64,000 nt of DNA from Frigoribacterium sp. CFBP 13712 (lineage in GTDB: Bacteria > Actinomycetota > Actinomycetes > Actinomycetales > Microbacteriaceae). A model generated the notes under the pieces. It was not told the origin of the DNA. It ran no database searches and saw only the letters and a list, made by a program, of their open reading frames with translations. A program made the position numbers and the translations under genes. Numbering within the stretch: position 1 is the stretch's first letter; the number at the start of each line of letters is the position of its first letter. Positions 4,984 through 62,946 of the stretch are shown in pieces. The stretch covers positions 1 through 64,000 of the forward strand of contig NZ_JACYVH010000006.1 of the NCBI RefSeq assembly GCF_014842255.1. The letters are read 5' to 3'.

Positions 4984-5000
4984 CCGAGGAGGCGCGGGTC
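4984..5000 (+). repeat. Interspersed 17-mer CCGAGGAGGCGCGGGTC (one of ten exact copies)
   Basis: Exact copies occur at 4984, 20812, 36709 and 36728 on the + strand. Copies on the - strand start at 34256, 39273, 39452, 44860, 45412 and 61171. Close variants include 17115, 21383, 52143, 62711 and 62773. Shorter matches to GGAGGCGCG or its complement bring the total to about thirty. Copies lie both in intergenic DNA and inside unrelated genes, in several reading frames. Confidence 0.9.
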
Positions 5001-5010
5001 GGGTCGACCG

Positions 5011-5907
5011 TCAGCGTCGCAGATCGAGGGTGCAGCACTTCACCCCGCCGCCGCCCAGCAGCAGCTCGGAGAGGTCGACGCCGATCGGGTTGTAACCCCG
5101 CTCGCGCAGCTGACGCTCGAAGCCCGTCGCCCGGGCGGCGATGACGACGTTGTAGCCGTCGCTGTACGAGTTGAGCCCCAGGATGGCGGCGTCCTCCTCG
5201 TCGACGAGGATCGCGTCCGGGAACCGCTCGCGCAGCACCTCGAGCGAGGCCGCGTCGAAGGCGCTCTCGAGGTAGGCGATGTTCTGGCCGCCCTCGACGG
5301 GCTCGGGGTCGAGCACCGCGATGGCCGTGTCGAGGTGGTAGAACGCGGGGTTCACGAGGGTGAGCCCGACGACCTCGCGACCGAAGACCCGCGCGACCTC
5401 GTCGTGCGAGCGGGTCGATGTGCGGAACCCGGTGCCGGCCAGCACGACGTCGCCGACGAGGAGCAGGTCGCCCTCGCCCTCGTTGATCTCGTCGGGCACG
5501 GCGACGTCGAAGCCGGCCTCGCGGAACCAGTCCATGTAGGCGGGGCCCTCGGGCTGGCGCTCGGGGTAGGTGAACAGGGCGCCGTAGGCCTTGCCGTCGA
5601 CGACGAATCCGCCGTTCGCCGCGTAGACCATGTCGGGCAGGCCGTCGATCGGGTCGATCAGGTGCACGTCGTGACCGAGGCCGACGTAGGTGTCGTAGAG
5701 CACCTGCCACTGGGCCACCGCCTTCGCGGTGTCGGTGGGCGCCGCGGGGTCCATCCACGGGTTGATCTTGTAGCTCACGGTGAAGTGGTCGGGTCGGCAC
5801 ATCAGCACCGTGCGCGGGGTGGCTCGACGGGTGATCGGGGGCTGGGGGTCTCCGGCGGTGTCCACGGAGTCGCTCGTGATGCTCACGGGTGCCAGTGTCA
5901 CACGCAC
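5011..5907 (-). CDS. Dimethylargininase/arginine deiminase-family hydrolase
   Basis: This 298-residue guanidine-modifying enzyme resembles the DDAH-like protein encoded next to an AsnC regulator in mycobacteria (Rv2323c/Rv2324). It probably hydrolyses an arginine-type guanidinium to citrulline. The fold is marked by MVYAANGGFV (about 93-102) and the active-site His in FYHLDT (H191, D193). The catalytic cysteine lies in the C-terminal GGGGVKCCTL (C291, less likely C292). The start is uncertain: GTG at 5907, or the in-frame GTG at 5886 that gives MSITSD. The homologous core begins only near residue 31. It is divergent from an Lrp/AsnC regulator, its likely controller. Exact substrate (arginine, methylarginine) is not decided. 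Confidence 0.85.
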   Translation of the reverse strand: MRVTLAPVSITSDSVDTAGDPQPPITRRATPRTVLMCRPDHFTVSYKINPWMDPAAPTDTAKAVAQWQVLYDTYVGLGHDVHLIDPIDGLPDMVYAANGGFVVDGKAYGALFTYPERQPEGPAYMDWFREAGFDVAVPDEINEGEGDLLLVGDVVLAGTGFRTSTRSHDEVARVFGREVVGLTLVNPAFYHLDTAIAVLDPEPVEGGQNIAYLESAFDAASLEVLRERFPDAILVDEEDAAILGLNSYSDGYNVVIAARATGFERQLRERGYNPIGVDLSELLLGGGGVKCCTLDLRR

Positions 5908-5963
5908 CGGGCGCAGGAGGCCGGGCTGCGACGCAACGAATGTGCGTTATGGGCCTGGATCAC

Positions 5964-6695: not shown

Positions 6696-6698
6696 CCC

Positions 6699-16817: not shown

Positions 16818-17504
16818 TCACGCCGCCGCGCTGCCGGCACGCACGACCGAGAGCAGCACCGGCGCCGACGCGATCTCGGCGAGGGCGACGCGTGAGGCGC
16901 CGAGGTCGGCACGGGCGACGGCGGCGCGGAGGGCCGCCAGCGCCGCCGACAGCCCCGCCTCGTCGAGATCGTCGCCGATGAAGCGGGCGTGGAACAGCAC
17001 CGTGGGGCCGAAATGGCCCATCAGCTGAGCGAGCCGCCGGTTCGACGACGCCGTGGCCATCGCCTCGGCGGCGGAGACGAGCGCCTCGATGGCCGGGGGC
17101 GCGGTCGGCGACGCGACCCGCGCCTCCTCGTCCACCGGCAGCGGGCCGTCGAGCGCCGTCGCCACCGCGACCCGGGCGGCGTCGTCGGCGATCGCCTCGG
17201 CGAGCGCGAGATCGGCGAGCGAGCAGAGCGTCGACAGCAGAGGCCGCACGAGCCAGGGCCGCGCGGTGCTGACCCGCGTGTACCGCTTGGGCACCGTCTC
17301 GACGAGAGAGAGGTCTTCCAGGCGGGCGAGCGCCATGCGGATGGGTGTGCGCGAGACGCCGAGCCAGTCTTCGAGATCGGTGTCGTGCAGGCGCTCGCCC
17401 TCGCCGAGCTGCCCCGACACGATCGCCTCGAGGACGAGCTCGAAGACCTCGTCGCGGTGGAGGCGCCGGCAGAGGGTGGGCGACGGGGTCGTCGGGATGG
17501 GCAT
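16818..17504 (-). CDS. GntR-family regulator, paralogue 2
   Basis: A 228-residue regulator of the same subfamily as 15454. The winged helix spans about residues 10-75 ([42 protein letters not shown]), followed by an all-helical effector half. The ATG at 17504 (MPIPTTPSP) follows GAGGAGG, and its MPIPT opening matches the paralogues at 24091 and 24949. The gene contains a 17-mer variant at 17115, read as EEARVAS. It is convergent with the sugar transferase, 12 bp away. Confidence 0.87.
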
Positions 17505-19098: not shown

Positions 19099-19707
19099 TC
19101 AGCCGCAGGTGACCTCGCGCCCGGCCGGGTCGACGTACTCGCCCGAGCCGAGCTGGGCGCAGGTAGCCGACAGGCGCGCCAGGTAGTCGAGGGCGCTGAC
19201 CCCGTAGACGATGCTCGCGATCAGCACGACGCCTCCGATCGCGACGCCGATCAGGGCCAGCCGACGAGAGAAGCCGGCGCGCGACGAGCGGTGGGCGGCG
19301 ACCAGCCCGAGCACGATGCCGAGCGGCGCGAAGAAGACGCCGAAGACGACCGACGCGACGGCCAGGCCGTGCCCCGGGTCGTCGTGCCGCGGCCGCGGAG
19401 CGTCCCACACGTCGTCGTCGGCGGGTGCGAAGTACGAGTCGAAGTCGGCGTCGCGGGCCCGGTGCTCGGGTGCGCGCGTGCCCTCCGCAGCGGACCCGGC
19501 TGCGCCCTGACCGGACGGCGTGCGCTCGGGCGCCTCGGGCGACCAGGTCTGCGGGGCGACCGGCGCGATCGACGCGACCCGTGCCTCCGGCAGGGTGTTC
19601 ACCGGCCGAGGAGGCGCGGCGAGGGGGATCGAGCGATCCTCACCGGGTGCGGGTCGGGTGAAGCGCGCCCACGGCGACGGGGGTCGCGGCGTGGACTGGT
19701 CGGTCAT
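19099..19707 (-). CDS. DUF4190-type membrane protein
   Basis: A 202-residue protein. The first 115 residues are Pro/Ala-rich and disordered. They are followed by two transmembrane helices (GLAVASVVFGVFFAPLGIVL, then LALIGVAIGGVVLIASIVYG) around a polar AAHRSSRAGFSRR loop, the DUF4190 pattern of actinobacteria. A short extracytoplasmic tail follows, with two Cys. The ATG at 19707 (MTDQSTPR) was chosen over an upstream in-frame ATG because the additional seven residues carry no signal. Function is unknown. It is divergent from pfkA. Confidence 0.78.
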   Translation of the reverse strand: MTDQSTPRPPSPWARFTRPAPGEDRSIPLAAPPRPVNTLPEARVASIAPVAPQTWSPEAPERTPSGQGAAGSAAEGTRAPEHRARDADFDSYFAPADDDVWDAPRPRHDDPGHGLAVASVVFGVFFAPLGIVLGLVAAHRSSRAGFSRRLALIGVAIGGVVLIASIVYGVSALDYLARLSATCAQLGSGEYVDPAGREVTCG

Positions 19708-20810: not shown

Positions 20811-20906
20811 GCCGAGGAGGCGCGGGTCGCCTCCACACGGACGGATCCGTCCACATTCCCCCGTGCAGGCGAGGCGCGAGGCGTCGTCATCTGACAGTCT
20901 CGATGC

Positions 20907-21398
20907 ATGGTCACGTTCATCGTCGTCGGGTCGGTGGGTCTCGTCGTCCTCCTGGTCAGCATCGTCGTGGGTGATCTGCTCGACGTCTTCGACATCGGCG
21001 ACGGCCTCGTCTCGGGCGTCGCCGTCGGCGCGGCGCTCGCCATCTTCGGCCTGGCCGGCATCGTCACGCTGCAGAGCGGTCTGCCCCCGGGGTGGACGTA
21101 CGCGATCGCCGTCGCGATGGCGCTCGTCGCCCTCGTGCTGATCCAGATCGTCATCCGCCGCGTGACCAGACGCGAGACCGGCGGCCACTGGTCGCCCGTC
21201 GGTTTCGTCGGCACCGCCACCGAGACCATCACGCCGACCGGCGGCGAGGTCCGGCTCGACGGCGTCCGCGAACTCGAACGGCGTCTCGCCGTCAGCGACG
21301 TGCGCATCGAGCGCGGCACCCGCATCCGCGTGGTGGCCGAGTCCGGGCCGCGCGTCGAGGTCGTGCGCGACGACTCCGAGCCGACCCGCGCCTCCTAG
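20907..21398 (+). CDS. NfeD-family membrane protein
   Basis: A 163-residue NfeD1b-type protein (B. subtilis YuaF-like). Three or four hydrophobic segments (1-90) are followed by a C-terminal OB-fold domain (HWSPVGFVGTATETI, then GTRIRVVAESGPRVEVV). NfeD partners flotillin and is encoded next to it in most bacteria; the flotillin gene follows here 66 bp downstream. The pair is thought to organise membrane microdomains. The last codons are a 17-mer variant (PTRAS, 21383). Confidence 0.88.
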   Translation: MVTFIVVGSVGLVVLLVSIVVGDLLDVFDIGDGLVSGVAVGAALAIFGLAGIVTLQSGLPPGWTYAIAVAMALVALVLIQIVIRRVTRRETGGHWSPVGFVGTATETITPTGGEVRLDGVRELERRLAVSDVRIERGTRIRVVAESGPRVEVVRDDSEPTRAS

Positions 21399-21464
21399 GC
21401 TCCCCCGGCCCGCCGGGCCCCCCGACAACCGCCCTGCACCACCGAAAGAGAAACGAGAAGCCCT

Positions 21465-24948: not shown

Positions 24949-25638
24949 ATGCCGATCCCCACGCTCACCGACCAGCCGCCCGCCCCCCGCCGCCTGCTGC
25001 GCGACGTCGTCTACGACAAGATGTTCGACGCGATCATCGACGGCACCCTCGAGTTCGGCGAACGACTGAACGACGACCAGCTGGTCGCCTGGCTCGGCGT
25101 CTCGCGCACGCCCGTCCGCGAGGCCATCGCGAAGCTCGCCGACCAGGCGCTCGTCGACATCGAGGCGAACCGGTACACGCGCATCGTGCACCCGACCTTC
25201 GACGAGTTCGTCGACACCATCGATGTCGGTTACGCCGTCTGGGCGCTCTTCGTCGAGCGCGGTGTCGCGCGTCTGGGTGCCGCTCAGCGCACCGAGGCCC
25301 TGAAGATCCTCGACGCCCGCGCGAAGGCGTTCGCGGCGAAGAAGCCCGAAGACGACCGCGCGCTCGTCCGCTTCAACGAGCTGCTGCTCGAGGCCAGCGC
25401 GAGCACCTCGCTGGCGCGACTGTGGGCGAACACCGGCCCGCGCCTCCTGCTGCTGATCCGTCGCCCGTCGTCGCAGGGTCTGTTCGACTTCGACGCGGCC
25501 CTCGCGTTCACGAAGACGCTGCGCGACGCGGTCGCCGAGGGCGACGCCCAGGCCGCGGCCGAGGCGGTCCGCACGCAGCCCGAGCGTCTGGCCGAGTTCC
25601 ACGAGCAGGTCCGCGAGGCGGGCGTCTACCTCTCGTGA
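24949..25638 (+). CDS. GntR-family regulator, paralogue 4
   Basis: A 229-residue regulator, the closest relative of paralogue 3. The winged helix spans about 12-80 ([40 protein letters not shown]), followed by a helical effector half. The ATG at 24949 (MPIPTLTDQ) follows AGGAG and restores the common MPIPT start. The stop overlaps the GTG of an ABC ATPase (GTGA), so the two are coupled and the ATPase may be its regulated partner. Confidence 0.87.
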   Translation: MPIPTLTDQPPAPRRLLRDVVYDKMFDAIIDGTLEFGERLNDDQLVAWLGVSRTPVREAIAKLADQALVDIEANRYTRIVHPTFDEFVDTIDVGYAVWALFVERGVARLGAAQRTEALKILDARAKAFAAKKPEDDRALVRFNELLLEASASTSLARLWANTGPRLLLLIRRPSSQGLFDFDAALAFTKTLRDAVAEGDAQAAAEAVRTQPERLAEFHEQVREAGVYLS

Positions 25639-26468
25639 CGCCGACGTCGATCACGTCGAGCATCGCACCAGTGGTGCTCGACGTGGCCGACGTCCGGGTC
25701 GCCCGTGCGGGTCGCGATCTGCTCGCCGGAGTCTCGCTGCGCGTGCGGGCCGCCGAGCACTGGGCCCTGATCGGTCCGAACGGGGCGGGCAAGACGACGC
25801 TGCTCACCCTCTGCGGCGCCCTCGGTCACCCCACCTCGGGCACGGTCGACGTGCTGGGGCGGCGGCTCGGTCGCGTCGACCTGAGCGAGCTGCGCCGGCG
25901 CATCGGCCACGTCGACCCCCGGCATCGCATGCTGCGCGACAACACGGTGCACGAGGTGGTGCTGACCGGGCTCACCGGCAGCAGCGACCCCGTCGCCCGC
26001 TGGTCGCCGACACCCGCCGAGGAGGCGCGGGCACGATCGCTGACCGCCTCCGTCGGACTCGGGGCCCGCTCCACGGCCCGCTGGTCGGTGCTGTCGCAAG
26101 GAGAGCGGGGTCGCGCCCTGATCGCCCGCGCGCTGCTCGCGTCGCCCGCGCTGCTGCTGCTCGACGAGCCCGCGACGGGTCTCGACGTCGCCGCGCGCGA
26201 GCACCTGCTCGACACCCTCGACGAGGTGCGGGCGAGCCACCCCGACGTCGCCTCGGTGACGGTCACGCATCATCTCGAGGATCTGCCGGCCAGCACGAGT
26301 CATGCGGTGCTGCTGCGCGACGGACGCGTCTTCGCGCAGGGGCCCGCCGACGACGTGCTGACCTCGGAGCTCGTCTCGGCGGCGTTCGACCACCCGCTGG
26401 TGATCGAGCGCGTCGCCGGCCGCTGGTCTGCGCGCACCCGGCGCGGCCGCCCGGCCTCATCGATGTGA
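25635..26468 (+). CDS. Stand-alone ABC ATPase
   Basis: A 277-residue single ABC ATPase domain. Walker A is GPNGAGKTT (about 55-63), the signature LSQGER, Walker B LLLLDEPATGLD and the switch His lies in TVTHH. The arrangement resembles ModF/YlmA-type soluble ATPases. No permease gene is adjacent, so it may act with a distant partner or not in transport at all. The 17-mer variant at 26018 is read here as PAEEARARS. The last ten codons lie within the first unit of the 135-bp tandem repeat, so the C-terminus is repeat-derived. Confidence 0.87.
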   Translation: MTPTSITSSIAPVVLDVADVRVARAGRDLLAGVSLRVRAAEHWALIGPNGAGKTTLLTLCGALGHPTSGTVDVLGRRLGRVDLSELRRRIGHVDPRHRMLRDNTVHEVVLTGLTGSSDPVARWSPTPAEEARARSLTASVGLGARSTARWSVLSQGERGRALIARALLASPALLLLDEPATGLDVAAREHLLDTLDEVRASHPDVASVTVTHHLEDLPASTSHAVLLRDGRVFAQGPADDVLTSELVSAAFDHPLVIERVAGRWSARTRRGRPASSM

Positions 26469-34108: not shown

Positions 34109-35509
34109 CTAGTCCGAGCGCGCCGCGAGTTGCCCGACCCCGCCGCTGAGCAGTGCCGCGGCGGTCGCCCGGGACTGCGCGATGACCGCGGCCAGACCAC
34201 GACCGGCCACGGCACCGCCGACCCGATGCACGCCGTCGAGGGGGGCGACGGGGGCGACCCGCGCCTCCTCGGCGTCCGTGACGGGTGCGGCGAGAGGGGC
34301 GTCCCAGGCGACCCGCGCCCAGCCCTCGACGGCGTCGGGGTCGATCGGCACGCCGAGCAGCACCGCGGCGTCGGCGATCGCGACGGCCCGCAGCTCGGCG
34401 TCGGGCGTGCCGGGCTCGACCACGGGCGAGTCGTAGCTGAGACGGAGCACGTGCCGCCCGCCGGCGAGGTCGGCGAGCCAGGGCCATTTGACCGTCGCGT
34501 GCGTCAGGGCCTTCGCCCGCACGTCGAGGGCGCCGGGGGCGACGAGCACGCCCGTGCCCCGCGGCCCGGTGTCGAGCGCCGGCTCGCGGACGACGAGCGT
34601 CACGAGCGTGATCAGGCCGGGAGCCGAGGAGGCGCGACCCGCCAGAGCCCGCCCCGCACCGTCGCCCACGGCCAGCACCACGGCGTCGGCGACGAGTCGC
34701 TCGCCGTCGACGGTGACGGACGACGCGTCGAGCGCCGACACCACCGCACCGAGTCGCATCTCGACGCCGAGTCGCTCGAGGTCGGCGACCAGGGCGTCGA
34801 CCAGGCGGGCGTTGCCCCCGCGGAGACCGGCGACGGCCGAGCCGGCGGGGGCCAGCGCGCGGAGGCTGAGGACGGCCGCAGCCAGCGAGCCCTCCCGCAG
34901 CAGCGCCCGGCGGAGCCCTGGCGAGACGCGGTCGACGAGGAGGTCGTCGGGGTGCCGCGAGTGCACGCCTCCGACGATGGGCGTGACCAGGCGGTCGAGC
35001 ACGGCGTCGCCCATCCGCGCCCGGATGAACGGGCCGACCGTCGTCTCGTCGGCGCCCACCTCGGCCGGCTGCGCGTCGAGTCGCTCGGCGAGCGCGGCGC
35101 CCTCGACGCCGATCACCTGCAGCACGTCGGGGTCCGTGAGGTCTCCGGGGATCCCGAGCAGACCCGTGCGGGGCAGCGGGAAGGCCTGTCCGTCGGCCTC
35201 GTGCACCCAGGCGCCGCGGCCGTCGGGCAGCACGACGTCGTCGGCGAGACCGAGCTCGTCGAGGTACGCGGCCACCGTGCCGCCGCGGGTGGCGAAGCTC
35301 TCGGCGCCCGAGTCGAGGTCGATCCCCGCGACGGTGTGCCGACCGACCTCGCCGCCGAGACGGTCGGACGCCTCGAGCAGCAGCACGGTCGCACCGCCGC
35401 GGGCCAGCTCGCGCGCGACGACCAGCCCCGCGACGCCGCCCCCGACGACGACCACGTCGGCCGGCGAACCGCCGGCACCGGTCGAGGAGGCGCGGAGCAG
35501 GTCAGGCAC
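34109..35509 (-). CDS. hemG: Coproporphyrinogen III oxidase (CgoX, HemG/HemY type)
   Basis: A 466-residue FAD oxidase that makes coproporphyrin III from coproporphyrinogen III. The FAD fold starts VVVVGGGVAGLV (19-30) with LLLEASDRLGGEV, and the family motif FATRGG follows. The C-terminal GVHRVGGAVAGRGLAAVIAQ closes the FAD site. The GTG at 35509 follows AAAGGG. It contains an exact 17-mer copy (34256, read as DAEEARVAP) and a partial one near 34622, while another part-copy (35482) lies near the start (SSTGA), showing insertion in several frames. Confidence 0.93.
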   Translation of the reverse strand: MPDLLRASSTGAGGSPADVVVVGGGVAGLVVARELARGGATVLLLEASDRLGGEVGRHTVAGIDLDSGAESFATRGGTVAAYLDELGLADDVVLPDGRGAWVHEADGQAFPLPRTGLLGIPGDLTDPDVLQVIGVEGAALAERLDAQPAEVGADETTVGPFIRARMGDAVLDRLVTPIVGGVHSRHPDDLLVDRVSPGLRRALLREGSLAAAVLSLRALAPAGSAVAGLRGGNARLVDALVADLERLGVEMRLGAVVSALDASSVTVDGERLVADAVVLAVGDGAGRALAGRASSAPGLITLVTLVVREPALDTGPRGTGVLVAPGALDVRAKALTHATVKWPWLADLAGGRHVLRLSYDSPVVEPGTPDAELRAVAIADAAVLLGVPIDPDAVEGWARVAWDAPLAAPVTDAEEARVAPVAPLDGVHRVGGAVAGRGLAAVIAQSRATAAALLSGGVGQLAARSD

Positions 35510-36708: not shown

Positions 36709-36744
36709 CCGAGGAGGCGCGGGTCGGCCGAGGAGGCGCGGGTC
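36709..36744 (+). repeat. Two tandem exact copies of the interspersed 17-mer
   Basis: CCGAGGAGGCGCGGGTC occurs at 36709-36725 and again at 36728-36744, separated by two bases. The second copy overlaps the stop codon of the MDR oxidoreductase gene on the other strand. Confidence 0.95.
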
Positions 36745-37750
36745 AGCCGACCTTGACGACCATCTTCCCGACGTTGGCACCGCGCATCAGGCCGGTGAAC
36801 GCCTCGAAGGCCTGGTCGATGCCCTCGACCACGGTCTCGTCGTGGACGACGTCGCCGTTCGCCAGCCACGGGCCCATCTCGGCCTGGAAGGCCGGAGCGA
36901 CGTGACGGTAGTTCCCGAGCGTGAAGCCCTTCATCATGAGGCCGCGCGTGACCATGTTGGTCAGGCCGGTGATGCCGACCGGGGCGCCGGTCGAGTTGTA
37001 GTTCGCGATCGAGCCGCAGAGCGCCGCGCGTCCGCCGTCGCGGAACGAGTCGAGGGCGGCCGAGAGGTGGTCGCCTCCGACGTTGTCGAAGTAGAGGTCG
37101 ATGCCGTCGGGCGCTGCCTCGCGCAGCAGCTCGGTGACGTCGCCGTCCTTGTAGTTGAAGGCCGCGTCGAAGCCGTACTTCGAGGTGAGCAGCTCGACCT
37201 TCTCGGCGGATCCGGCGCTGCCGATCACACGCGAGGCGCCCTTGAGACGGGCGATCTGGCCGACCATGGTGCCCACGGCGCCGGCGGCTCCCGAGACGAA
37301 GACGACGTCGCCCTCGCGGATGCCGGCGATCTCCGTCAGACCGACGTAGGCGGTCAGCCCGGTGAGACCGAGCACGCCGAGGTAGGCCGACAGCGGCACT
37401 CCGTCGACGGGCTGCACGGCACGGAACGAGCCCGCGCCTCCCTGGGCCACGTCGCGCCAGCCGAGGTCGTGCTGCACGACCGCGCCGACGGGGAGGTCGC
37501 CCGAGCGGGACTCGACCACGCGGCCGATGGCACCGCCGGTCATCGTCTCGTTCAGGGCGAACGGCGGCACGTACGACTTGACGTCGTTCATCCGACCGCG
37601 CATGTAGGGGTCGACGGAGAGGAACTCGTTCTGCACCCGGACCTCGCCCTCGCCGAGCTCGGGCAGCGTCACCTCGACACGGCGCACGTCGTCGGGGGTG
37701 GGCTCGCCCTGGGGGCGGGCGATGAGCTGCCACTGGGTGCTGATGGTCAT
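36743..37750 (-). CDS. CurA/PTGR-type NADP-dependent oxidoreductase
   Basis: A 335-residue zinc-free MDR reductase of the leukotriene B4 dehydrogenase/CurA group, which reduces alpha,beta-unsaturated carbonyls. [14 protein letters not shown] is the group hallmark, with the cofactor loop [20 protein letters not shown] and [11 protein letters not shown]. The ATG at 37750 follows GGAGAATC. It lies between hemE and the divergent hemA; a 159-bp intergenic region with an inverted repeat separates it from hemA. Involvement in heme metabolism is not indicated by family. Confidence 0.9.
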
Positions 37751-37909: not shown

Positions 37910-39184
37910 GTGCTCATCTGCCTGACGGCGTCCCATCGGAACGCCAGCTTCGACCTCCTCGAGAAGTTGAGCATCGGCGCACCCTCCGCGGTCGGCACAT
38001 TGGTCGACGGCAGCGACTTCGTCAACGGCGCCGTCGTGCTCGCGACCTGCAACCGCTTCGAGGCCTACCTCGACGTCGACGAGCCCCTCACCGCCGGCAG
38101 CGCCGTCGCGGTCGAGGCCACCATCGCCACCATGAGCGATGCGAGCGACGTCACGGCCGACGACCTCCGCGACAGCGTGCGGGTCATCACCGGCGACGAG
38201 GTCGTCGAGCACCTGTTCGCCGTCAGCTCCGGCCTCGAGTCGGTCGTCATCGGCGAAGACGAGATCTCGGGTCAGGTGCGTCGCGCCCTCGAGCGGGCCC
38301 GCGAGGGCGGCACGACGTCGTCCGACCTCGAACGCCTCTTCCAGAAGGCTTCGCACACCTCGCGGGGCGTCAAGAACCGCACGAACGTAGGAGGCGCGGG
38401 TCGCTCGCTCGTCCGCCTCGCCCTCGAGCTCGCCTCCTCGCGCGTCACGGACTGGGCCCACGCCCGGGTGCTGATCGTGGGCACCGGCCAGTACGCGGCC
38501 ACCACGGTCACCGCACTGCGCGACCGGGGCGCCGACCGGCTGGCCGTCTACTCGTCGTCGGGTCGCGCCTCCTGGTTCGGGCTGAAGCACGACGCGACCC
38601 CCTACGACGACCTCGCCACCGCCATCGAGTGGTGCGACGTCCTCATCACCTGCACCTCGACCACCCAGCCCGTGGTCACCCCCGACGTCGTCACCCCGGG
38701 CGCGCGCCGACTCGTCATCGACCTCGGTCTGCCGCGCAACGTCGACCCGCTGGTCACCGAGGTCGAGGGCGTCGAGCTGCTCGACCTCGAGACGATCAGC
38801 CTGCACGCTCCGCTCGCCGAGCTCACCGCCGCCGACGACGCCCGCGCGCTCGTGTCGACGGCCGCCGCCGAGTTCCAGGCCGTCGCCGCCGAGCAGTCGC
38901 TGACCCCCGCGGTCGTCGCGCTGCGGAAGCACGTCTTCGACCTGCTCGACTCCGAGATCGAGCGGGCGCGGTCGCGTGGCGACTCGTCCGACCGCACCGA
39001 GGCCGCGCTGCGTCACCTGGCCGGCGTGCTGCTCCACACCCCGTCGGTGCGGGCGCGCGAGCTGGCCCGCGAGGGCCGCGGCGAGGAGTTCCGCGACGGG
39101 CTCGAGGCGCTGTTCGGCCTCACCGACACGCGCGCGGCCGCCGCCCCGGCCCCGCACCTGCGCGCCGTCGGCGACGCCGGCTGA
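37910..39184 (+). CDS. hemA: Glutamyl-tRNA reductase
   Basis: A 424-residue HemA that reduces Glu-tRNA to glutamate-1-semialdehyde, the entry to C5 heme synthesis. The catalytic Cys is C47 in [25 protein letters not shown] and the NADPH-binding [12 protein letters not shown] follow, then a C-terminal helical dimerisation domain. The product is handed to HemL, whose gene is in the opposite-strand heme cluster. Two 17-mer variants lie inside (near 38390 and 38562). The GTG start matches a leaderless promoter. Confidence 0.95.
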
Positions 39185-39200: not shown

Positions 39201-39301
39201 ACGACGCCAGGAGATGCACACGACGCCACGAGAAAAGGTGGCGTCGTGTCCATCTGGTGGCGTCGTGATGACGACCCGCGCCTCCTCGGCCGACCGCCGA
39301 C
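39201..39301. repeat. Nested palindromic direct repeat, family C copy 1
   Basis: The outer ACGACGCCA/TGGCGTCGT arms (39201-39209, 39258-39266) enclose an inner 12-bp hairpin ACACGACGCCAC/GTGGCGTCGTGT with loop GAGAAAAG. The unit ends with an exact 17-mer copy (39273-39289). Extra CGACGCCA words occur near 39321 and 39352. Confidence 0.92.
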
Positions 39302-39379: not shown

Positions 39380-39480
39380 ACGACGCCACGAGATGCACAC
39401 GACGCCACGAGAAAAGGTGGCGTCATGTCCATCTGGTGGCGTCGTGATGACGACCCGCGCCTCCTCGGCCGACCGCCGAC
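39380..39480. repeat. Nested palindromic direct repeat, family C copy 2
   Basis: This is a near-identical copy of 39201-39301, offset by 179 bp, differing at only a few bases (for example GTCATG for GTCGTG). It too ends with an exact 17-mer (39452-39468). The two copies fill the hemA/M13 convergent gap of 356 bp, in which I find no gene. Confidence 0.92.
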
Positions 39481-44787: not shown

Positions 44788-45375
44788 TCAGTCGGGCGGA
44801 GCGACGCCGGGCGGCTCGGCGCCGGCCTCGAGCCGGGCGACGGCGCGGGCGATGCGGCCGACCCGCGCCTCCTCGGTGGGTGCCGTCAGCACCGGATGCA
44901 TGACCGAATAGCGGGCCGACCGGCTCAGCCCGGCGAACGCCTGGGAGGCGCGGGTCGAGTCCGCGAGCGCAGCCGCCAGGTCGACGGGCGGCTCCATGTC
45001 GGCCTGGCCCGCGTAGGCGCGATCCCAGCGTCCGTCGGCCTTCGCCCGGTCGATCTCGGCCTGGCCCCGCGGGCGCATCCGGCCCGAGTCGACCAGCCGC
45101 GCGACGTGGTCGACGTTGCGCATCGACCAGATCGAGCGTGCTCGACGCGGGGTGAAGTGCTGCTGGAAGGTCGCCTCGTCGATGGCGTTGCGGCGCCCGT
45201 CGATCCACCCGCTGCAGAGCGCCTCGTCGAGCGCCTCGGCGTAGGTGAGCGACGTGGGGCTCGACGTGCCCTTCTTCGCGAGCACGAGACGCACGCCGTC
45301 CGAGGTCGCCTCGTGGGCGTCGAGCCAGGCCCGCCAGGCGGCGGCGTCGAGCACGGTGAGGCGGTCGTCGCTCAT
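44788..45375 (-). CDS. YdeI/OmpD-associated family protein
   Basis: A 195-residue protein. AWLDAHEATSDGVRLVLAKK, SLTYAEALDEALCSGWIDG and FTPRRARSIWSMRN are the recognised conserved blocks of this family (bacteriocin-protection/YdeI type), whose biochemical role is unknown. The ATG at 45375 (MSDDRLTV) gives full family length. An exact 17-mer copy (44860) is read in frame as PTEEARVGR near the C-terminus. Confidence 0.87.
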   Translation of the reverse strand: MSDDRLTVLDAAAWRAWLDAHEATSDGVRLVLAKKGTSSPTSLTYAEALDEALCSGWIDGRRNAIDEATFQQHFTPRRARSIWSMRNVDHVARLVDSGRMRPRGQAEIDRAKADGRWDRAYAGQADMEPPVDLAAALADSTRASQAFAGLSRSARYSVMHPVLTAPTEEARVGRIARAVARLEAGAEPPGVAPPD

Positions 45376-45436
45376 GTCTCCCTCTCGGGGCCGGGTCCGT
45401 CGGCGAGTGGCGACCCGCGCCTCCTCGGCTCCGTGG

Positions 45437-47750: not shown

Positions 47751-48632
47751 TCAGTCCTTCACGGCGCCTGCGGTGACACCGGCGGCCACGTAGCGCTGGG
47801 CGACGACGAGCAGGACGGTGGCGGGGATGGAGGCGACGACGGCGGTGGCCATGATCGAGTTCCACTCCTGGTTGTTGTTGCCGATGTAGCGGTAGATGCC
47901 GAGGGTGATCGTCTGCGCGTCGCCGCCGCTGTTGAGCGTCGACGAGAAGACGAAGTCCGACCAGGCCCAGAGGAACGCGAAGAGTCCGACGGTGACCGCC
48001 GAGTTGCGGCTGACGGGCAGCACGATCGAGATGAAGGTCCGCCAGGCGCCGGCGCCGTCGAGCTTCGCGGCACTCATCAGCTCGTCGGGGATCCCCCGCA
48101 TGAAGGCGGTGAAGATCAGCACCCCGAACGGCACCGCGAGCGTCGAGTCGGCGATGACCAGCCCCCACCACTCGTCGAGGATCCCGAGGTTCAGGTAGAT
48201 CGCGTAGAAGCCCATGGCCATGATCACCTGCGGGATCATCTGCGCGACCAGCAGGACGAAGCTCAGCGCGCCTCCTCCCCGGGGTCGCAGCTTCGCGAGC
48301 GAGTACGCGGCCGGGGCGGCGAGCGCGATCGTCACGACCACGGTGCCGATCCCCACCAGCAGACTCGTGCCGAGGTACGGCAGCTGGTCGGCGACCACGG
48401 CCCGGTAGCCGTCGAGCGTCGGCGCGGCGGGGAACCACGACGGCGGGCTCTGCCGCATCTGCGCGGTCGGGGTGAGCGAGACGTTGATCATCCAGTAGAT
48501 CGGGAACAGCATGATCGCGGTGAGGACGACGCCGATCACGGTGGTGGCGAGACTGCGACGACCGGCTCTCCCCGAGGAGGCGCGGCGCGCCTCCGATCGG
48601 GGGGCCGCGGCGGGGCGGACGGCGGTGGTCAT
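47751..48632 (-). CDS. Carbohydrate ABC permease, MalG type
   Basis: A 293-residue inner-membrane permease with six helices. The EAA loop SAAKLDGAGAWRTFISIVLP contacts the ATPase. MFPIYWMINVSLTPTAQM is typical of CUT1 MalG proteins. The start overlaps the MalF-type gene by 4 nt (ATGA), and GH127 begins 4 bp after its stop. The locus encodes no ATPase, so a shared MsmK-like ATPase elsewhere must energise it. Confidence 0.93.
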   Translation of the reverse strand: MTTAVRPAAAPRSEARRASSGRAGRRSLATTVIGVVLTAIMLFPIYWMINVSLTPTAQMRQSPPSWFPAAPTLDGYRAVVADQLPYLGTSLLVGIGTVVVTIALAAPAAYSLAKLRPRGGGALSFVLLVAQMIPQVIMAMGFYAIYLNLGILDEWWGLVIADSTLAVPFGVLIFTAFMRGIPDELMSAAKLDGAGAWRTFISIVLPVSRNSAVTVGLFAFLWAWSDFVFSSTLNSGGDAQTITLGIYRYIGNNNQEWNSIMATAVVASIPATVLLVVAQRYVAAGVTAGAVKD

Positions 48633-52125: not shown

Positions 52126-52237
52126 CTCGGCGGTCTGCACCCGACCCGCGCCTCCTGGGCACGCGCACGCCCCCTGCGCACGCACCCGCCTCCTGCGCAC
52201 GCACCCGCGCGAGGTTCGGCGGGTTCCCGTCACTCGC

Positions 52238-52285: not shown

Positions 52286-53521
52286 TCACGACGCCTCGAA
52301 CAGCACCGCGCCCTCGGCCACGACCACGTCGGGCGACCAGTCGGCGCCGAGCACGACGAGATCCGCCCGGGCCCCGACCTCGAAGCGCCCGAGGTCGCCG
52401 CGGCCGAGCAGATCGGCCGGGGTGCGTGTCAGCGCGGTGACCGCCGCGACCGGGTCGACGCCCGACTCGACGGCGAGGCGCAGGGCGACGTCCTGCGTGA
52501 GCACCGACCCGGCGAGCGCGCCCGAGTCGGCGAGCCGCGCCTCCCCGTCCGAGACGACGACGTCGAGCCCGCCGAGGCGGTACGCGCCGTCGGCGCTGCC
52601 CGTGGCGCTCATCGCGTCCGTCACGAGCGCCACGCGCCCCGGGGCGAGGCGGAAGGCCGCGCGGGTGACGGCCGGGTGCAGGTGCACGCCGTCGACGATG
52701 AGCTCGAGCACGGCGTCGGCATCGACGGCCGCCAGCACGGGCCCGGGCTCGCGATGCAGCAGCGGGGGCATGGTGTTGAAGGCGTGGGTGAGCGCGCGGG
52801 CGCCCCGGCGGAAGGCGTCGAGGGCGCAGTCGTAGTCGGCCGCGGTGTGCCCGACGGCGACGACGACCCCCGCCTCGACGAGACGACTCCGGGCGTCGGC
52901 GGCACCGTCGAGCTCGGGCGCGATCGTGACCATCCGCAACGACCCGACCGCCGCAGCGAGCAGGCGGTCGATCGACTCGGCGGTCGGCGTCGTGAGCACC
53001 GTCTCGTCGTGCGCGCCCTTGCGCGTCGGCGCGAGATAGGGGCCCTCGAGGTGCGAGCCGAGCACGAGGGGGTCCGACGCCGCGAGCGCCGCGACCCGCC
53101 GGAGCGCCGCCTCCTGCCGGTCGATCGGCGCCGAGACGAGGCTCAGCACCTGCCGCGTCGTGCCGTGCCTGCGGTGGTGCGCGAGGGCGGGTGCGAGGTC
53201 GGCGTCGTCGTCGTACGAGATCCCGGCCGCGCCGTGCCCGTGCAGGTCGATGAACCCGGGGGTGACGACCCGGCCCCGCGCATCGATGGTGCGGACGCCC
53301 GCCGGAGGCTCGGCGAGAGACCCCGCACCGGTCCCGACCCCGGTCCCCACCTCGACGACGACCCCGCCCTCGATGCGCAGCCAGCCCGGCCGGCGCCCCG
53401 CCGAGTCGATCAGCACGGCGTCGTGCACGAACAGCGCATCCGCGTCGGCGCCAGCACCCACGTCAGCACCAGCACCCGCACCCGCACCGGCGCCAGCACC
53501 AGCACCCGCGTCAGCGGTCAC
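52286..53521 (-). CDS. nagA: N-acetylglucosamine-6-phosphate deacetylase
   Basis: A 411-residue amidohydrolase that deacetylates GlcNAc-6-P for NagB. GFIDLHGHGAAGISYDDD holds the metal HxH, and LEGPYLAPTRKGAHDE, AVGHTAADY, HAFNTMPPLLHRE and VTDAMSATG are all present. The GTG at 53521 overlaps the nagB stop (GTGA). The first 30 codons are a hexanucleotide array (Gly-Ala repeats, AGAGAGAG), so the functional start is uncertain; an upstream ATG at 53533 and an internal start are alternatives. It forms an operon with nagB. Confidence 0.93.
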   Translation of the reverse strand: MTADAGAGAGAGAGAGAGADVGAGADADALFVHDAVLIDSAGRRPGWLRIEGGVVVEVGTGVGTGAGSLAEPPAGVRTIDARGRVVTPGFIDLHGHGAAGISYDDDADLAPALAHHRRHGTTRQVLSLVSAPIDRQEAALRRVAALAASDPLVLGSHLEGPYLAPTRKGAHDETVLTTPTAESIDRLLAAAVGSLRMVTIAPELDGAADARSRLVEAGVVVAVGHTAADYDCALDAFRRGARALTHAFNTMPPLLHREPGPVLAAVDADAVLELIVDGVHLHPAVTRAAFRLAPGRVALVTDAMSATGSADGAYRLGGLDVVVSDGEARLADSGALAGSVLTQDVALRLAVESGVDPVAAVTALTRTPADLLGRGDLGRFEVGARADLVVLGADWSPDVVVAEGAVLFEAS

Positions 53522-54591: not shown

Positions 54592-55593
54592 ATGACCAGC
54601 ACCTACACGCCCCACGACGCTCCCGCCGCCGAGCCCTCTCCACCGACGGGCGGCTTCGATCGATTCCAGATGTCGGGAGAGGATCTCGAGGAGGCGCGGG
54701 CCGGTCTCGAGACCAGTCTCGAAGGTCGCGAATTCCGCGCCCGACGTGCCGAGATGCCTTTCTCGTACCGATTCGCGTCGGCGGGCGACTCGCGTCTCAG
54801 CCTGCAGAGCGGGACGTTCCTCGCGCACATCCAAGGGGTCATCCCCTGGTCGAAGGACTACATCGTGTCGTGGTTCCGTTCGGGCGCGGTCACCATCGAT
54901 CACCCGGGCGGCCAGCTCAGCAGCGACGGTTCGCGGCCCTTCCTGACGCCGAGCGAGACGTCGTACTCGTTCACGATGACGCCGCACCGGCACGGCATCG
55001 TGCACTTCGGGGCGTCGTTCCTCGAAGACGTCGCGACCGAGCGCCACGGCGGTCCGCCGCAGCGCATCGTCTTCGACTACGCCGCCGTCCCCGACGCGGC
55101 GGCCCTCTCCGCCTGGCAGGCCGCGCTCGGCGCCGCGACCCCGCTGATCGTGGCGCCCGCGACACCCCCTCTCGCCCGGCACTCGGCGCAGGCGTCGTTG
55201 GCCGGGGCCCTGCTCGACCTCTTCCCGTGGCGGGCCGTCGACGTCCCCGAGGCGCTCCGCACCGAGCACACCCGGAAGCTCCGCCAGGCCGCCGAGTACG
55301 TGCACGCCTTCGCCGACCAGCCGATCACGGCGGGCGACATCGCCTCGGCGGCCGGCGTGCACACCCGCACGCTGCAGCAGCTGATGAGCCAGCACCTCGG
55401 ATCGAGCCCCACGACCTACCTCCGCCACGTGCGACTCGACCGGGCCCGTCAGGACCTCCTCGCGGCCGACCCCGGCTCCGACTTCGTGGCCGGCATCGCG
55501 CGCCGCTGGGGCTTCGGCAATCTGGGGCGCTTCTCCGCGGCCTACGCCGCGCGCTTCGGCGAGTACCCGCGAGACACGCTCAGCCGCTGGTGA
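54592..55593 (+). CDS. AraC-family transcriptional regulator
   Basis: A 333-residue regulator. The C-terminal third has the two-HTH AraC domain (PITAGDIASAAGVHTRTLQQ, then FVAGIARRWGFGNLGRFSAA, GEYPRDTLSRW). The N-terminal 230 residues form an effector domain of the AraC-ligand-binding-like type (RFQMSGEDLEEARA and FRSGAVTIDHPGG). The ATG at 54592 follows AGGAGACACC. Its divergent place suggests control of nagBA, but family members of this shape usually sense other metabolites. A 17-mer variant at 54687 is read as LEEARAG. Confidence 0.88.
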   Translation: MTSTYTPHDAPAAEPSPPTGGFDRFQMSGEDLEEARAGLETSLEGREFRARRAEMPFSYRFASAGDSRLSLQSGTFLAHIQGVIPWSKDYIVSWFRSGAVTIDHPGGQLSSDGSRPFLTPSETSYSFTMTPHRHGIVHFGASFLEDVATERHGGPPQRIVFDYAAVPDAAALSAWQAALGAATPLIVAPATPPLARHSAQASLAGALLDLFPWRAVDVPEALRTEHTRKLRQAAEYVHAFADQPITAGDIASAAGVHTRTLQQLMSQHLGSSPTTYLRHVRLDRARQDLLAADPGSDFVAGIARRWGFGNLGRFSAAYAARFGEYPRDTLSRW

Positions 55594-56675: not shown

Positions 56676-56796
56676 CCTCGTCCCCGGGCATCCCGAGGCG
56701 GAGCCTGCAGGAGGCGCGGCGCCCGTCCCGCAGGACGCAGCGCCGAAGACGAGGCGGACCCGGGGCCTGGTATCTGCAGGGGAGGCGCGGCGCCGG

Positions 56797-58744: not shown

Positions 58745-59440
58745 GTGCGTCTCGTCATAGCCCGTTGCTCAGTCGACTACGCCGGGCGACTCTCGGCCCA
58801 TCTGCCGCTGGCCACCCGCCTGCTCATGATCAAGAGCGACGGCAGCCTCCTCGTCCACTCCGACGGCGGCAGCTACAAGCCGCTCAACTGGATGAGCCCG
58901 CCCTGCTCGATCAGCATCCTCGAGGCCGACGCCGACCAGCAGGAGGCGGGGGTCGTCGAGCTCTGGAAAGTCACGCAGGCGAAGACCGCCGACATCCTCG
59001 TGGTCTCGATCCACGAGATCATCCACGACTCGAGTCACGAGATGGGCTTCGATCCCGGCCTGACGAAAGACGGCGTCGAGGCCGATCTGCAGAAGCTCCT
59101 GGCCGAGCAGATCGAGCTGCTGGGCGAGGGTCACACCCTCGTGCGCCGCGAGTACATGACGGCGATCGGCCCGGTCGACATCCTCGCCCGCGATGCCTCC
59201 GGAGGCGCGGTGGCGGTCGAGCTGAAACGTCGCGGGGACATCGACGGCGTCGAGCAGCTGACCCGCTACCTCGAGCTGATGAACCGAGATCCGCACCTGG
59301 CGCCCGTCACGGGCGTCTTCGCGGCGCAGGAGATCAAGCCGCAGGCACGCACCCTGGCGCACGACCGCGGCATCCGCACGCTGCTGCTCGACTACGACGC
59401 CATGCGCGGGCTGGACGACTCGCACTCGCGGCTGTTCTAG
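58745..59440 (+). CDS. nucS: NucS/EndoMS mismatch-specific endonuclease
   Basis: A 231-residue NucS, the actinobacterial replacement for MutS/MutL. It cuts both strands at G:T, G:G and T:T mismatches, with the beta-clamp. The N-terminal DNA-binding domain (1-110) has [20 protein letters not shown]. The C-terminal RecB-like nuclease has GPVDILARD (D145) and [13 protein letters not shown] (E159, K161), the catalytic set, followed by QLTRYLELM. The GTG start fits the leaderless promoter. It shares a control region with the GntR-like gene. Confidence 0.96.
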
Positions 59441-59867: not shown

Positions 59868-60545
59868 ATGACTCTCCCCTACACCGCCGTGCTCTTCGAC
59901 CTCGACGGCACCATCGCGGACTCCGCTCCGGCGATCACCGCCAGTCTCGCCTACACGATCGAGGCCATGGGGCTGCCGGTGCCCCCGGCGACCGAGCTGA
60001 TCGCCTGGGTCGGCCCGCCCCTCCCGCAGAGCTTCGAGGTCCGTCTCGGTCTCACCGGCGACCGTCTGGTCGAGGCCATGCGCATCTACCGGGCGCACTA
60101 CCTCGAGACCGGGGCGCTCACCAGCCCCATCTACCCCGGGGTCGCCGATCTCCTGGCCGCCGTGCACGCCGCCGGCATCCCCACCTCGACGGCGACCTCC
60201 AAGCCCGAGACCCCGGCCACGCGCATCCTCGAGGTCAACGACCTGGTCCGCTACCTCGACATCATCACCGGCGCCTCCGACGACGAGGTGCGCAACACCA
60301 AGGCCGACGTCGTCGCCGAGGCGCTCCGCCGACTCGAGGCCCGCGGCGTCGACCTGTCGCGTCCGGTCCTGATCGGCGATCGGCACCACGACGTCGAGGG
60401 CGCCGCCGTCCACGGCGTCCCGACGATCATCGCCGGCTGGGGCTACGGCGACGAGAACGAGCACGTCGGGTCCGTCGCGGTGGCGGCCGACGTCGACGAG
60501 CTCGCGGCCCTGCTGGGCGTCACCCTCCTGCGCGGCGCGGCGTGA
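59868..60545 (+). CDS. HAD-superfamily phosphatase (Gph-like)
   Basis: A 225-residue HAD hydrolase. LFDLDGTIADS has the nucleophile D11 and D13, STATSKPETPATRIL supplies the Ser/Lys region, and VLIGDRHHDVEGAAVHG holds the Mg-binding Asp. It matches the phosphoglycolate phosphatase/pyrophosphatase PpaX group. The ATG at 59868 follows TAAGCT (59855) at near-leaderless spacing. The stop overlaps the MFS start (GTGA). Substrate is not determined. Confidence 0.92.
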   Translation: MTLPYTAVLFDLDGTIADSAPAITASLAYTIEAMGLPVPPATELIAWVGPPLPQSFEVRLGLTGDRLVEAMRIYRAHYLETGALTSPIYPGVADLLAAVHAAGIPTSTATSKPETPATRILEVNDLVRYLDIITGASDDEVRNTKADVVAEALRRLEARGVDLSRPVLIGDRHHDVEGAAVHGVPTIIAGWGYGDENEHVGSVAVAADVDELAALLGVTLLRGAA

Positions 60546-61879
60546 GCACCCGCGCGGGCGCCGCCGTGCGGTCGCCCGCCACCTGGCTGCTGACCCTCGC
60601 GATCGTCCTGATCGCGATCAACCTCCGTGGTCCGATCGTGGCCACCGCACCCGTGCTCGACCAGATGATCGGCGACCTGGGGCTCTCCGCGGTCGTGGCC
60701 GGCCTGCTGACCAGCATCCCGGTGCTCTGCTTCGCCGTCGCGAGCCCGGCGGCCTCGGCCCTGATCGGCCGGGTGGGCCCCGAGCTGGCGGTCACCCTCG
60801 GTCTCGCCGGCGTGCTCGCCGGCACGATCATCCGCACCCTCGGCAGCTCCTTCTGGCTCTACGCCGGCACGATCGTCATCGGCATCGCGATCACCATCGG
60901 CAACGTGGTGCTGCCGGTGGTCATCAAGCGCGACTTCTCACCCGAGCGGGGCGGCTTCGTCACGGGCGTCTACACGTCGGCGCTCAACGTCGGGTCGATG
61001 ATCACCTCGCTCGGCACCGCCCCGATCGCGTCCGTCGTCGGGTGGCCGGTGGCGCTGCTCACCTGGGGTCTCCTCGCGGTGCTCGCGGGGGTCGTGTGGT
61101 CGATCGCCGTGGGGCCCCGGGTGGCGCTGCGGGGCGTGCGCGAGCGGTCGGCGACGGGCGCGGGCGACGCGACCCGCGCCTCCTCGGCTCGCGACGGGTC
61201 CGACACGACGCCAGGGGCCGAGCCCGGCGCATCCGACGTGCTGACCGGCGGCGTCCCGGTCATCGACGAGCGGTCCGCCGCCGCCGACGCCGCGCGCCGT
61301 GCCGAGGCCGATCGTCCGCCGCTGCTGCGCCGCTGGACGACCTGGGGGCTCACCCTCGCATTCGCGGGCCAGGCCTTCGGCTACTACGGGCTGACGGCCT
61401 GGATGCCGACGCTCCTGCGCGACGAGATCGGACTCACGCGCGAGGCCGCGGGCGCCAGCTCGTCGGTCTTCCAAATCCTGGCCGTGGTGGGTGCGCTCGG
61501 GGTGCCGGTGCTGGCCCTGAGACTGCGCCCCGCGATCGTCATCGCCCTGATCAGCCTCTTCTGGACGGTCATGCCCCTCGGGCTGCTCTTCGCCCCCGAG
61601 CACTGGCTGCTCTGGTCGATCTTCGGCGGCGCGGCCCAGGGCGGCGGCATCACGATCATCTTCATCGTCATCGTGCGCATGGCGAGCACCGACACCGACG
61701 CCAGGCGCCTCTCGGCGCTCGTGCAGGGCGGCGGCTACGCGATCGCGGCACTCGGTCCGCTGGCGATCGGCGGGCTGCACGACGCCTCGGGCAACTGGCA
61801 GGTGCCGATGCTCGGCGTCTTCGCCGCGACGCTCGTGCTCGGCGTCAGCGGCGTGCTGTCGTCCCGGCGGATCCGCTGA
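60542..61879 (+). CDS. MFS transporter, CynX/NimT type
   Basis: A 445-residue major facilitator protein with twelve helices. NLRGPIVATAPVLDQMIGDL near TM1 is the CynX/NimT (cyanate/2-nitroimidazole) group motif. A 60-residue hydrophilic loop between TM6 and TM7 is Ser/Asp-rich and contains an exact 17-mer (61171, read as ATRASSARDG). It is coupled to the HAD gene by GTGA. Its last 35 nt overlap the convergent NmrA-type gene. Substrate is unknown. Confidence 0.9.
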   Translation: MSTRAGAAVRSPATWLLTLAIVLIAINLRGPIVATAPVLDQMIGDLGLSAVVAGLLTSIPVLCFAVASPAASALIGRVGPELAVTLGLAGVLAGTIIRTLGSSFWLYAGTIVIGIAITIGNVVLPVVIKRDFSPERGGFVTGVYTSALNVGSMITSLGTAPIASVVGWPVALLTWGLLAVLAGVVWSIAVGPRVALRGVRERSATGAGDATRASSARDGSDTTPGAEPGASDVLTGGVPVIDERSAAADAARRAEADRPPLLRRWTTWGLTLAFAGQAFGYYGLTAWMPTLLRDEIGLTREAAGASSSVFQILAVVGALGVPVLALRLRPAIVIALISLFWTVMPLGLLFAPEHWLLWSIFGGAAQGGGITIIFIVIVRMASTDTDARRLSALVQGGGYAIAALGPLAIGGLHDASGNWQVPMLGVFAATLVLGVSGVLSSRRIR

Positions 61880-62735
61880 CCAGCTGCTCGAGCGTCAGCG
61901 GGTCGTGCCCGGTCAGATCGCGCACCGCGGTCGAGACGCCCGACACCTCGCCCGAGGCGATCGACGCGTAGGTGCTGACCCAGGCGTCGGCGATGTAGGG
62001 CTCGGGGTTCCAGGCCGCGCGCGACGCGTAGGCCTCGTCGAGGGTCTCGTCGACGAACGTGTGCCGGCGTCCGGTCGCGGTGGTCAGTCGGGCGGCGAGC
62101 TCGGCGAGGCTCAGCGCCTCGGGGCCCGTCAGGTCGTAGGCGGCGCCCCGGTGCGCCGACGGGTCGCGCAGCACGGCGACCGCGGCGTCGGCCACGTCGG
62201 CGCGGGCGACGGCGGCGACCCGCCCCTCCCCCGCCGGTCCGCGGATCACCCCGTCGGCGTCGGCGAAGTCGATCAGGGCGTCAAGGTAGAACGAGTCGCG
62301 CAAGAACGTGGTGGCGGCACCCGAGGCGAGCAGGTGCTGCTCGGTGGCGGCGTGGTCGCGCGCCAGCGTGAAGACCGCGTCGGGCGCCGCGCCCTGGAAC
62401 GACGTGTAGACGATGTGCCGCACCCCGGCCTCGACGGCGGCGTCGACGAACGCGCGGTGCTGGTCGAGTCGGTCGACGGCCTCGGCGGCCGACACCATGA
62501 AGAGCGTCTCGACGCCCTCGAGCGCCGTGCGGGCCGCGGCGCGGTCGGCGTACGAGGCGACGGCGATCTCGACGTGCTCGCCGAGGCTCGGCGCGCGCGA
62601 GGCGTCGCGTACGACGAGGCGCAGCGGTACGCCGTCGGCGGCGAGCGCGGCGGCGACCCGCCCGCCGAGGGCTCCGGTGGCGCCGGTCACGGCGACGAGG
62701 CGGGGGGAATCCGAGGAGGTGCGGGTCGAGTCCAT
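61845..62735 (-). CDS. NmrA/QOR2-type atypical SDR
   Basis: A 296-residue NAD(P)-binding protein of the atypical short-chain group. The NAD loop is AVTGATGALGGRVAAALAAD with LRLVVRDASRAPSL. The catalytic Tyr of classical SDRs is not in place, but TSFQGAAPDAVFTLARDH and GAATTFLRDSFYLDAL match QOR2-type NADPH sensors or quinone reductases. The ATG at 62735 is near a one-mismatch 17-mer at 62711. Its 3' end overlaps the MFS gene in convergent orientation. Confidence 0.9.
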   Translation of the reverse strand: MDSTRTSSDSPRLVAVTGATGALGGRVAAALAADGVPLRLVVRDASRAPSLGEHVEIAVASYADRAAARTALEGVETLFMVSAAEAVDRLDQHRAFVDAAVEAGVRHIVYTSFQGAAPDAVFTLARDHAATEQHLLASGAATTFLRDSFYLDALIDFADADGVIRGPAGEGRVAAVARADVADAAVAVLRDPSAHRGAAYDLTGPEALSLAELAARLTTATGRRHTFVDETLDEAYASRAAWNPEPYIADAWVSTYASIASGEVSGVSTAVRDLTGHDPLTLEQLVSGSAGTTARR

Positions 62736-62946
62736 GACTCAGCCAACCGCGGTCGCGCCCTCCCTGTTCCGTGACCCGCGCCTCCTGGGCTCGATCGCCG
62801 TGCTGACGCGGATCGAGAGTCGTTATCGACTGGGTCCGAGACCTGTCGGGTGTCGGCGGCCCGGGCTATCGTCGGGGTGAGCGATCACCGACGACCCGCG
62901 ACCGGGCCGTGGGCTCGAGCCGCCCGAACACCCGAGAGAGCACAGC

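Follow-up and report, generated by a model that had tools for sequence, protein, structure and literature searches.

An abundant, genus-wide DNA motif in Frigoribacterium as a candidate DNA uptake sequence

Motif copies in the window

The window analysed here is a 64,000-nt part of contig C6 from the 3.16-Mb genome of Frigoribacterium sp. CFBP 13712 (40 contigs; G000 below), and its genes and spacers carry repeated copies of a 17-bp motif that is treated here as a candidate DNA uptake sequence. Ten copies are exact, four on the forward strand and six on the reverse, and all were found at the coordinates and on the strands listed in an initial annotation of this DNA. Five near copies, described there as having one or two mismatches, each differ at exactly one base. 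With up to three mismatches allowed the window contains 37 matches, compared with a mean of 3.37 and a maximum of 9 in 100 dinucleotide shuffles. The copies are listed below with their state in G156, the closest of the relatives found (aligned blocks 88.6% identical); G110, G150 and G151 are other Frigoribacterium genomes referred to later.

4984..5000, +, exact; 37-bp spacer between convergent genes, 10 bp from each gene end; identical in G156
17115..17131, -, one mismatch; in GntR-type regulator gene 16818-17504 (-); 13/17 in G156
20812..20828, +, exact; 1 bp past the end of phosphofructokinase gene 19785-20810; identical in G156
21383..21399, -, one mismatch, which creates a TAG stop; protein 20907-21398 ends TRAS; identical in G156
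34256..34272, -, exact; in FAD amine-oxidase-fold gene 34109-35509 (-), EEARV frame; identical in G156
36709..36725, +, exact; first of a direct pair, 3' of dehydrogenase gene 36743-37750 (-); 11/17 in G156, not kept
36728..36744, +, exact; second of the direct pair, overlapping the TGA stop of 36743-37750 (-); identical in G156
39273..39289, -, exact; 356-bp convergent spacer, within a 101-bp duplicated unit; not alignable in G156
39452..39468, -, exact; second copy of the 101-bp duplicated unit; not alignable in G156
44860..44876, -, exact; in YdeI/OmdA-family gene 44788-45375 (-), EEARV frame; identical in G156
45412..45428, -, exact; 8 bp 3' of DivIVA-like gene 45437-45715 (-); identical in G156
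52143..52159, -, one mismatch; 17 bp 3' of LacI-type regulator gene 51004-52125 (+); not alignable in G156
61171..61187, -, exact; in MFS gene 60542-61879 (+), TRASS frame; 14/17 in G156
62711..62727, +, one mismatch; across the 5' end of NmrA-like gene 61845-62735 (-); G156 has the exact motif
62773..62789, -, one mismatch; divergent spacer; 14/17 in G156

The gene contexts and the EEARV and TRASS frames given earlier for the copies at 34256, 44860 and 61171 hold, the gene then called hemG presumably being the FAD amine-oxidase-fold gene 34109-35509. Two points needed revision. The ten copies stand as positions, but a stretch of 101 bp in a convergent spacer is directly duplicated (39201-39301 and 39380-39480, 98% identical) and each of its two units contains one of them, at 39273 and 39452, which leaves nine independent copies. 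This duplication also contains many further GGTGGCGTCGTG-like words. The 17-mer is a real consensus, but the true unit is a shorter and commoner core, GGAGGCGCGG, of which the 17-mer is the full consensus and of which the window holds 29 copies, including the following.

18452-18461 (+) and 18478-18487 (-), inverted core pair within gene 17615-18508
19610..19619, +, core, intergenic
25438..25447, -, core in coding sequence (CDS) 24949-25638
26021..26030, +, core, two mismatches over the 17-mer, in CDS 25635-26468
35486..35495, +, core in CDS 34109-35509
37432..37441, -, core in CDS 36743-37750
38390..38399, +, core, two mismatches over the 17-mer, in CDS 37910-39184
44944..44953, +, core, two mismatches over the 17-mer, in CDS 44788-45375
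48576..48585, +, core, two mismatches over the 17-mer, in CDS 47751-48632
52535..52544, -, core in CDS 52286-53428
54690..54699, +, core, two mismatches over the 17-mer, in CDS 54592-55593
56710..56719, +, core, intergenic
56781..56790, +, core, 6 bp 3' of gene 56797-57864 (-)
59201..59210, +, core in CDS 58745-59440

Abundance in the genome and in the genus

The exact 17-mer occurs 238 times in the whole genome (108 on the forward and 130 on the reverse strand) and the reversed word does not occur at all, which, with the shuffles of the window, bears out the earlier view that its recurrence is not due to chance. The 11-mer AGGAGGCGCGG is present 1,152 times compared with 12 for its control, and all 16 of the Frigoribacterium genomes examined contain it, at 383-1,239 copies per genome. 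Each of these 16 genomes also has 94-466 copies of the 17-mer at up to one mismatch, where the control gives none. The motif therefore extends well beyond the window, outside which the initial annotation had allowed that it might be absent. Under a 4th-order Markov model of 1.05 Mb, the most over-represented words were AGGAGGCGCG (435 observed, 14.7 expected) and GGAGGCGCGG (444 observed, 17.9 expected). The flanks of the core, CCGA on the 5' side and GTCG on the 3' side, are preferences, the preferred context being CCGA-core-GTCG.

Among the genomes sampled the motif is restricted to the genus. In 295 other genomes of the class, AGGAGGCGCGG has 0-59 copies, close to the reversed control. In 150 genomes of the family, the exact 17-mer was found 238, 24 and 11 times in three genomes of the same genus and as a single copy in two others. 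A 14-mer at up to one mismatch occurred 525-936 times in these three genomes of the genus; the remaining 147 genomes had no more than 118 copies (control 35), and some of them reached 2-4 times their own control. An all-genome scan returned at least 108 matching stretches, and among the 80 matches listed, 48 were from Frigoribacterium and 32 were single matches in other genera. The idea that the motif is common to the whole family was rejected after 400 kb from seven other genera (40-60 kb each) yielded one copy of the 11-mer and no comparable leading word. On the question of a phage origin, 12 stretches of a viral collection contain the exact 17-mer, with one copy each.

Within the genus the motif may vary. 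A one-base variant has 22 copies in G150 and 0-1 in the 15 other genomes, and further variant words are enriched in G150 and G110. Two words over-represented in G110, GGAGGCGGTG (27 observed, 3.2 expected) and GAGGGCGGGT (21 observed, 2.7 expected), are possibly dialect variants. Other repeated words were seen in passing: a palindrome-like word in G156, TTTCACGTGA (8 observed, 0.1 expected), is possibly a regulator site, and GGAGTTGCCGAC, with 10 copies within 60 kb (G000 contig C1 1-60,000), is perhaps a local repeat.

Signal at the DNA level

The in-gene exact copies fall mainly in two reading frames, EEARV and TRASS. The codons GAG GAG GCG CGG GTC all end in G or C and the genome has a GC content of 72%, so that the motif could be imagined as a by-product of codon usage and base composition. 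This explanation is next to impossible. When synonymous codons were shuffled within genes 30 times, in 832 kb with gene calls made within this analysis, the in-gene exact copies fell from 26 to a mean of 0.63 and a maximum of 2; the 24 exact copies in spacers were compared with none in 30 randomisations. In addition, genera of the family whose samples have a GC content of 71-72% lack the motif in those samples. A frequency equal to that of a codon- and composition-matched random model, the other outcome envisaged in the initial annotation, was thus not what was found, and the evidence supports its proposal of spread or selection at the level of DNA, not of protein.

Conservation at orthologous positions

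Comparison with relatives, also put forward in the initial annotation, points the same way. Ten of 12 alignable exact sites are identical in G156, where mean flank identity is 0.77, and seven of 10 are identical in G151, giving 17 of 22 over the two genomes. Random 17-mers are perfectly kept in 13-21% of cases. BLAST alignments may be anchored by the motif itself, which would inflate the conservation seen in gappy spacers. Taken by class, the excess is significant for window spacers against G156 (4/5, P=0.0055) and for coding sequences of contig C1 against G151 (5/6, P=0.00017), and not significant alone for window coding sequences against G156 (2/3, P=0.11) or C1 spacers against G151 (2/4, P=0.1). 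Whole cores were perfect in 23/41 and 24/49 cases compared with 61/176 and 65/278 for permuted 11-mers (pooled, 47/90 against 126/454). Per-base identity over 90 cores was 0.87-0.93 across GAGGCGCGG; the 5' flank gave 0.69-0.84 and the 3' flank 0.73-0.88. The region 44500-45800 of the window has a full-length ortholog within the genus in G156 only, other matches being short pieces, paralogs or repeats.

Beyond about position +20 the flanks are not conserved and the profile is nearly flat, which argues against a mobile short repeat of the REP (repetitive extragenic palindromic)/REPIN or miniature inverted-repeat transposable element kind. A mobile element would suit the high copy number, the genus restriction and the inverted pairs described below, but about half of the exact copies are genic and mostly in two frames, some sites missing in relatives align gap-free, as substitutions, and the genome has no match to PF01797 (Y1_Tnp, RAYT-type). 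A mobile repeat, one of the options first offered, is therefore very unlikely.

Placement, pairs and hairpins

Motif sites are enriched outside genes, with 28 of 54 exact sites in the roughly 11% of bases that are intergenic. Eleven of these 28 lie in convergent spacers (17% of spacer bases) and one in a divergent spacer (25%), and the zone up to 50 bp downstream of gene 3' ends, which makes up 23% of intergenic bases, holds 51 of 68 intergenic sites. Inside genes, the cores concentrate in the first and last tenths (51 and 48 of 317), and 140 have the same orientation as the gene and 177 the opposite. The last 40 bp of a gene is overlapped by 22 cores, seven of them in proteins that end in RAS with the stop abutting the core, as at 21383 in the window, where a single altered motif base gives the TAG; other copies of the motif overlap a TGA stop, and copies near stops are found in both orientations.

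Cores also occur in pairs. Inverted (+-, tail-to-tail) pairs number 17 compared with about 3.3 expected. The 23 short-gap inverted pairs have inner stems of varied sequence, averaging 3.6 bp against 0.77 in shuffled loops, and their predicted folds range from -26 to -52 kcal/mol; 19 of the 23 are in spacers, only one of which is divergent. These folds, and the crowding of intergenic sites just downstream of genes, are what would be expected if the copies were halves or whole stems of transcription terminators or another RNA element of gene 3' ends. That explanation is nevertheless improbable, as 26 exact copies lie wholly within genes in the 832 kb tested, most exact sites are single, with an inverted near-copy (up to four mismatches) lying within 60 bp of just 11 out of 64, and copies near stops face both ways. 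No Rfam covariance model matched at the motif sites, and the only gathering-score matches in the window were three consecutive tRNA genes at 2964-3313.

A different palindromic hairpin repeat follows the YdeI-like gene on its 3' side, at 44725-44788 of the window. Stretches resembling it (72-86%) occur on contigs C3, C4, C5, C7 and C11 and in G151 and G156, while a short-word search of part of the genome matched this repeat to itself alone.

A short conserved word spread over the chromosome might also serve in recombination or segregation, as Chi and KOPS (FtsK orienting polar sequences) do. The strand bias about origin and terminus raised in the initial annotation was absent from the single-contig genome G110, where the best half-chromosome split was 55:45 and was reached by 972 of 1000 shuffles. 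This test used 100 of 110 sites and tried partitions at 50-kb steps because the origin of G110 was not located. Chi and KOPS are shorter than the Frigoribacterium site. A polar signal of this type, which was among the options first listed, is extremely unlikely. Regular spacing was rejected as well. The coefficient of variation of the gaps was 1.02 between exact sites and 1.15 when one mismatch was allowed, compared with 0.98 +- 0.09 at random (computed at the site number of the one-mismatch set), and the sites are if anything slightly clumped.

Competence genes and interpretation

The genome has genes that a DNA uptake function would call for. A ComEA-type gene (SLBB and HHH domains) adjoins comEC, and a tad-type cluster at C1 470-473 kb encodes a T2SSE ATPase, T2SSF, a small DUF4244 protein that is Flp-like by eye, a Tad-domain protein and TadE (below the cut-off); there is one strong T2SSE match in the genome. 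All 16 Frigoribacterium genomes have comEC.

Taken together, the anatomy of the motif suggests a DNA recognition sequence used throughout the genus, for which a DNA uptake sequence (DUS) of Frigoribacterium is the leading candidate, and we put the chances of this as even. Most of the testable anatomical features agree with the DUS or uptake signal sequences (USS) described in the available text of PMC3630211, PMC2397512, PMC4322843 and PMC2346458, and among the options in the initial annotation it is an uptake signal that accounts for most of what was tested of the anatomy. A competence receptor on a Tad/Flp pilus, or ComEA, would bind the motif in extracellular DNA, and DNA of the same genus would then be carried preferentially to ComEC and recombined. 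Motif-bearing alleles would be transmitted more often, and the motif may accumulate by point mutation and biased recombination, a form of molecular drive, where it is least harmful, that is, at gene ends, in spacers and in tolerant codons. Inverted pairs may have been reused as terminator-like hairpins that would act in termination. The fuller proposal, of a self-recognition uptake sequence whose receptor is ComEA or a Tad/Flp pilus and which arose independently of the Neisseriaceae and Pasteurellaceae, we hold tentatively, at slightly less than even confidence.

Several observations weigh against an uptake function. Direct core pairs are in excess too (17 compared with about 6.6 expected), which hairpins do not explain. 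An 81-kb stretch (G000:C3 107,983-188,881) has no site at up to one mismatch and six with two mismatches. Its content reads as housekeeping operons, which we take by eye from N-termini to be those of amino-acid, pyrimidine and central-carbon metabolism, and an explanation of this stretch as an island was rejected. In the more distant G110, four of 15 window sites were alignable and none was identical, and the reciprocal comparison found none of 10 G110 sites alignable to the window. Besides Frigoribacterium, comEC was found in 10 of 14 control genomes and is common far beyond the genus, so its presence has no discriminating power; the competence genes are a necessary condition and a non-discriminating one. 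No uptake receptor was identified, a ComP-type minor pilin not having been searched for, and no report on natural competence of Frigoribacterium was found in the open-access literature. Finally, no depletion of the motif was seen in accessory segments. With 'accessory' defined as absent from one relative's segment and pairs compared both ways, 20 of 265 cores lay in the 9.3% of bases so classed (P=0.40), as did four of 54 exact sites (P=0.82). This would count against a DUS because such sequences are reported, in the available text of PMC2397512, to be missing from recently acquired genes.

The apparent lack of accessory depletion would be explained by a genus-specific nucleoid-associated or chromosome-organising protein that binds about a thousand sites and has no role in uptake. 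Protein binding accounts equally well for conservation at orthologous positions, and a specific, non-palindromic and non-polar site of 10-17 bp in both genes and spacers is in keeping with it. By itself, this explanation does not predict the crowding at stop codons, the rarity in divergent spacers or the inverted hairpin pairs with paired inner stems. A nucleoid-protein site, another of the options first offered, is unlikely but still carries appreciable weight. Given the accessory segments, the 81-kb stretch, G110 and the points on receptor and competence, the motif is labelled here 'uptake-sequence-like' and not a proven DUS.

If the motif does act in uptake it would be, to our knowledge, the first uptake sequence in Actinomycetota and in Gram-positive bacteria. 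Such a case would be a test of whether biased uptake generally leads to genome-wide self-marking of DNA. It would also suggest a sequence-specific receptor of a new class, and could make these bacteria easier to transform in the laboratory. Should the motif instead be a nucleoid-protein site, the 3-Mb chromosome would still have, in its thousand or so conserved sites, an unexplained genome-wide system.

Comparison with known systems

Other abundant short repeats resemble the Frigoribacterium motif in part. REP/REPIN elements, which are associated with RAYT transposases, are likewise short and abundant and form inverted pairs, but the Frigoribacterium genome has no Y1_Tnp gene and its motif is not confined to spacers. 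HIP1 of cyanobacteria, an extremely abundant palindromic octamer, is similarly a very abundant short word, whereas the Frigoribacterium core is non-palindromic and spacer-enriched.

In the literature covered, uptake sequences are described for Neisseriaceae and Pasteurellaceae only, and the open-access literature yielded no paper linking uptake signal sequences to Microbacteriaceae or DNA uptake sequences to Actinomycetota. As described in the text available of PMC3630211 and PMC2397512, the DUS of Neisseriaceae is about 10-12 bp long with roughly 940-3,240 copies in the genomes named there, lies in genes and is favoured in spacers, forms inverted pairs tied to terminators, is conserved above its flanks, and exists as related dialects between species. 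Recombination tracts are also reported to be rich in DUS. The Frigoribacterium motif is similarly short, abundant, genic and spacer-enriched, with inverted pairs and conservation above its flanks. It differs in being G+C-rich and unrelated in sequence, in its actinobacterial host with a pilus cluster of the Tad/Flp kind, and in that depletion from accessory DNA was not seen. The USS of Pasteurellaceae is likewise a short motif found across the genome, and its copies inside genes are concentrated towards the termini (PMC2346458, in the part available), a bias shared by the in-gene cores of Frigoribacterium. Sequence and phylum are different, and the reading-frame orientation bias described in that same text is weak in Frigoribacterium.

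Micrococcus luteus has comEA, comEC and two tad clusters, and its transformation requires Flp pili (PMC4322843, a paper whose text does not contain the term 'uptake sequence'). Unlike M. luteus with its two tad clusters, the Frigoribacterium genome has one tad-type cluster; like it, Frigoribacterium is an actinobacterium with comEA-comEC and tad-type genes.

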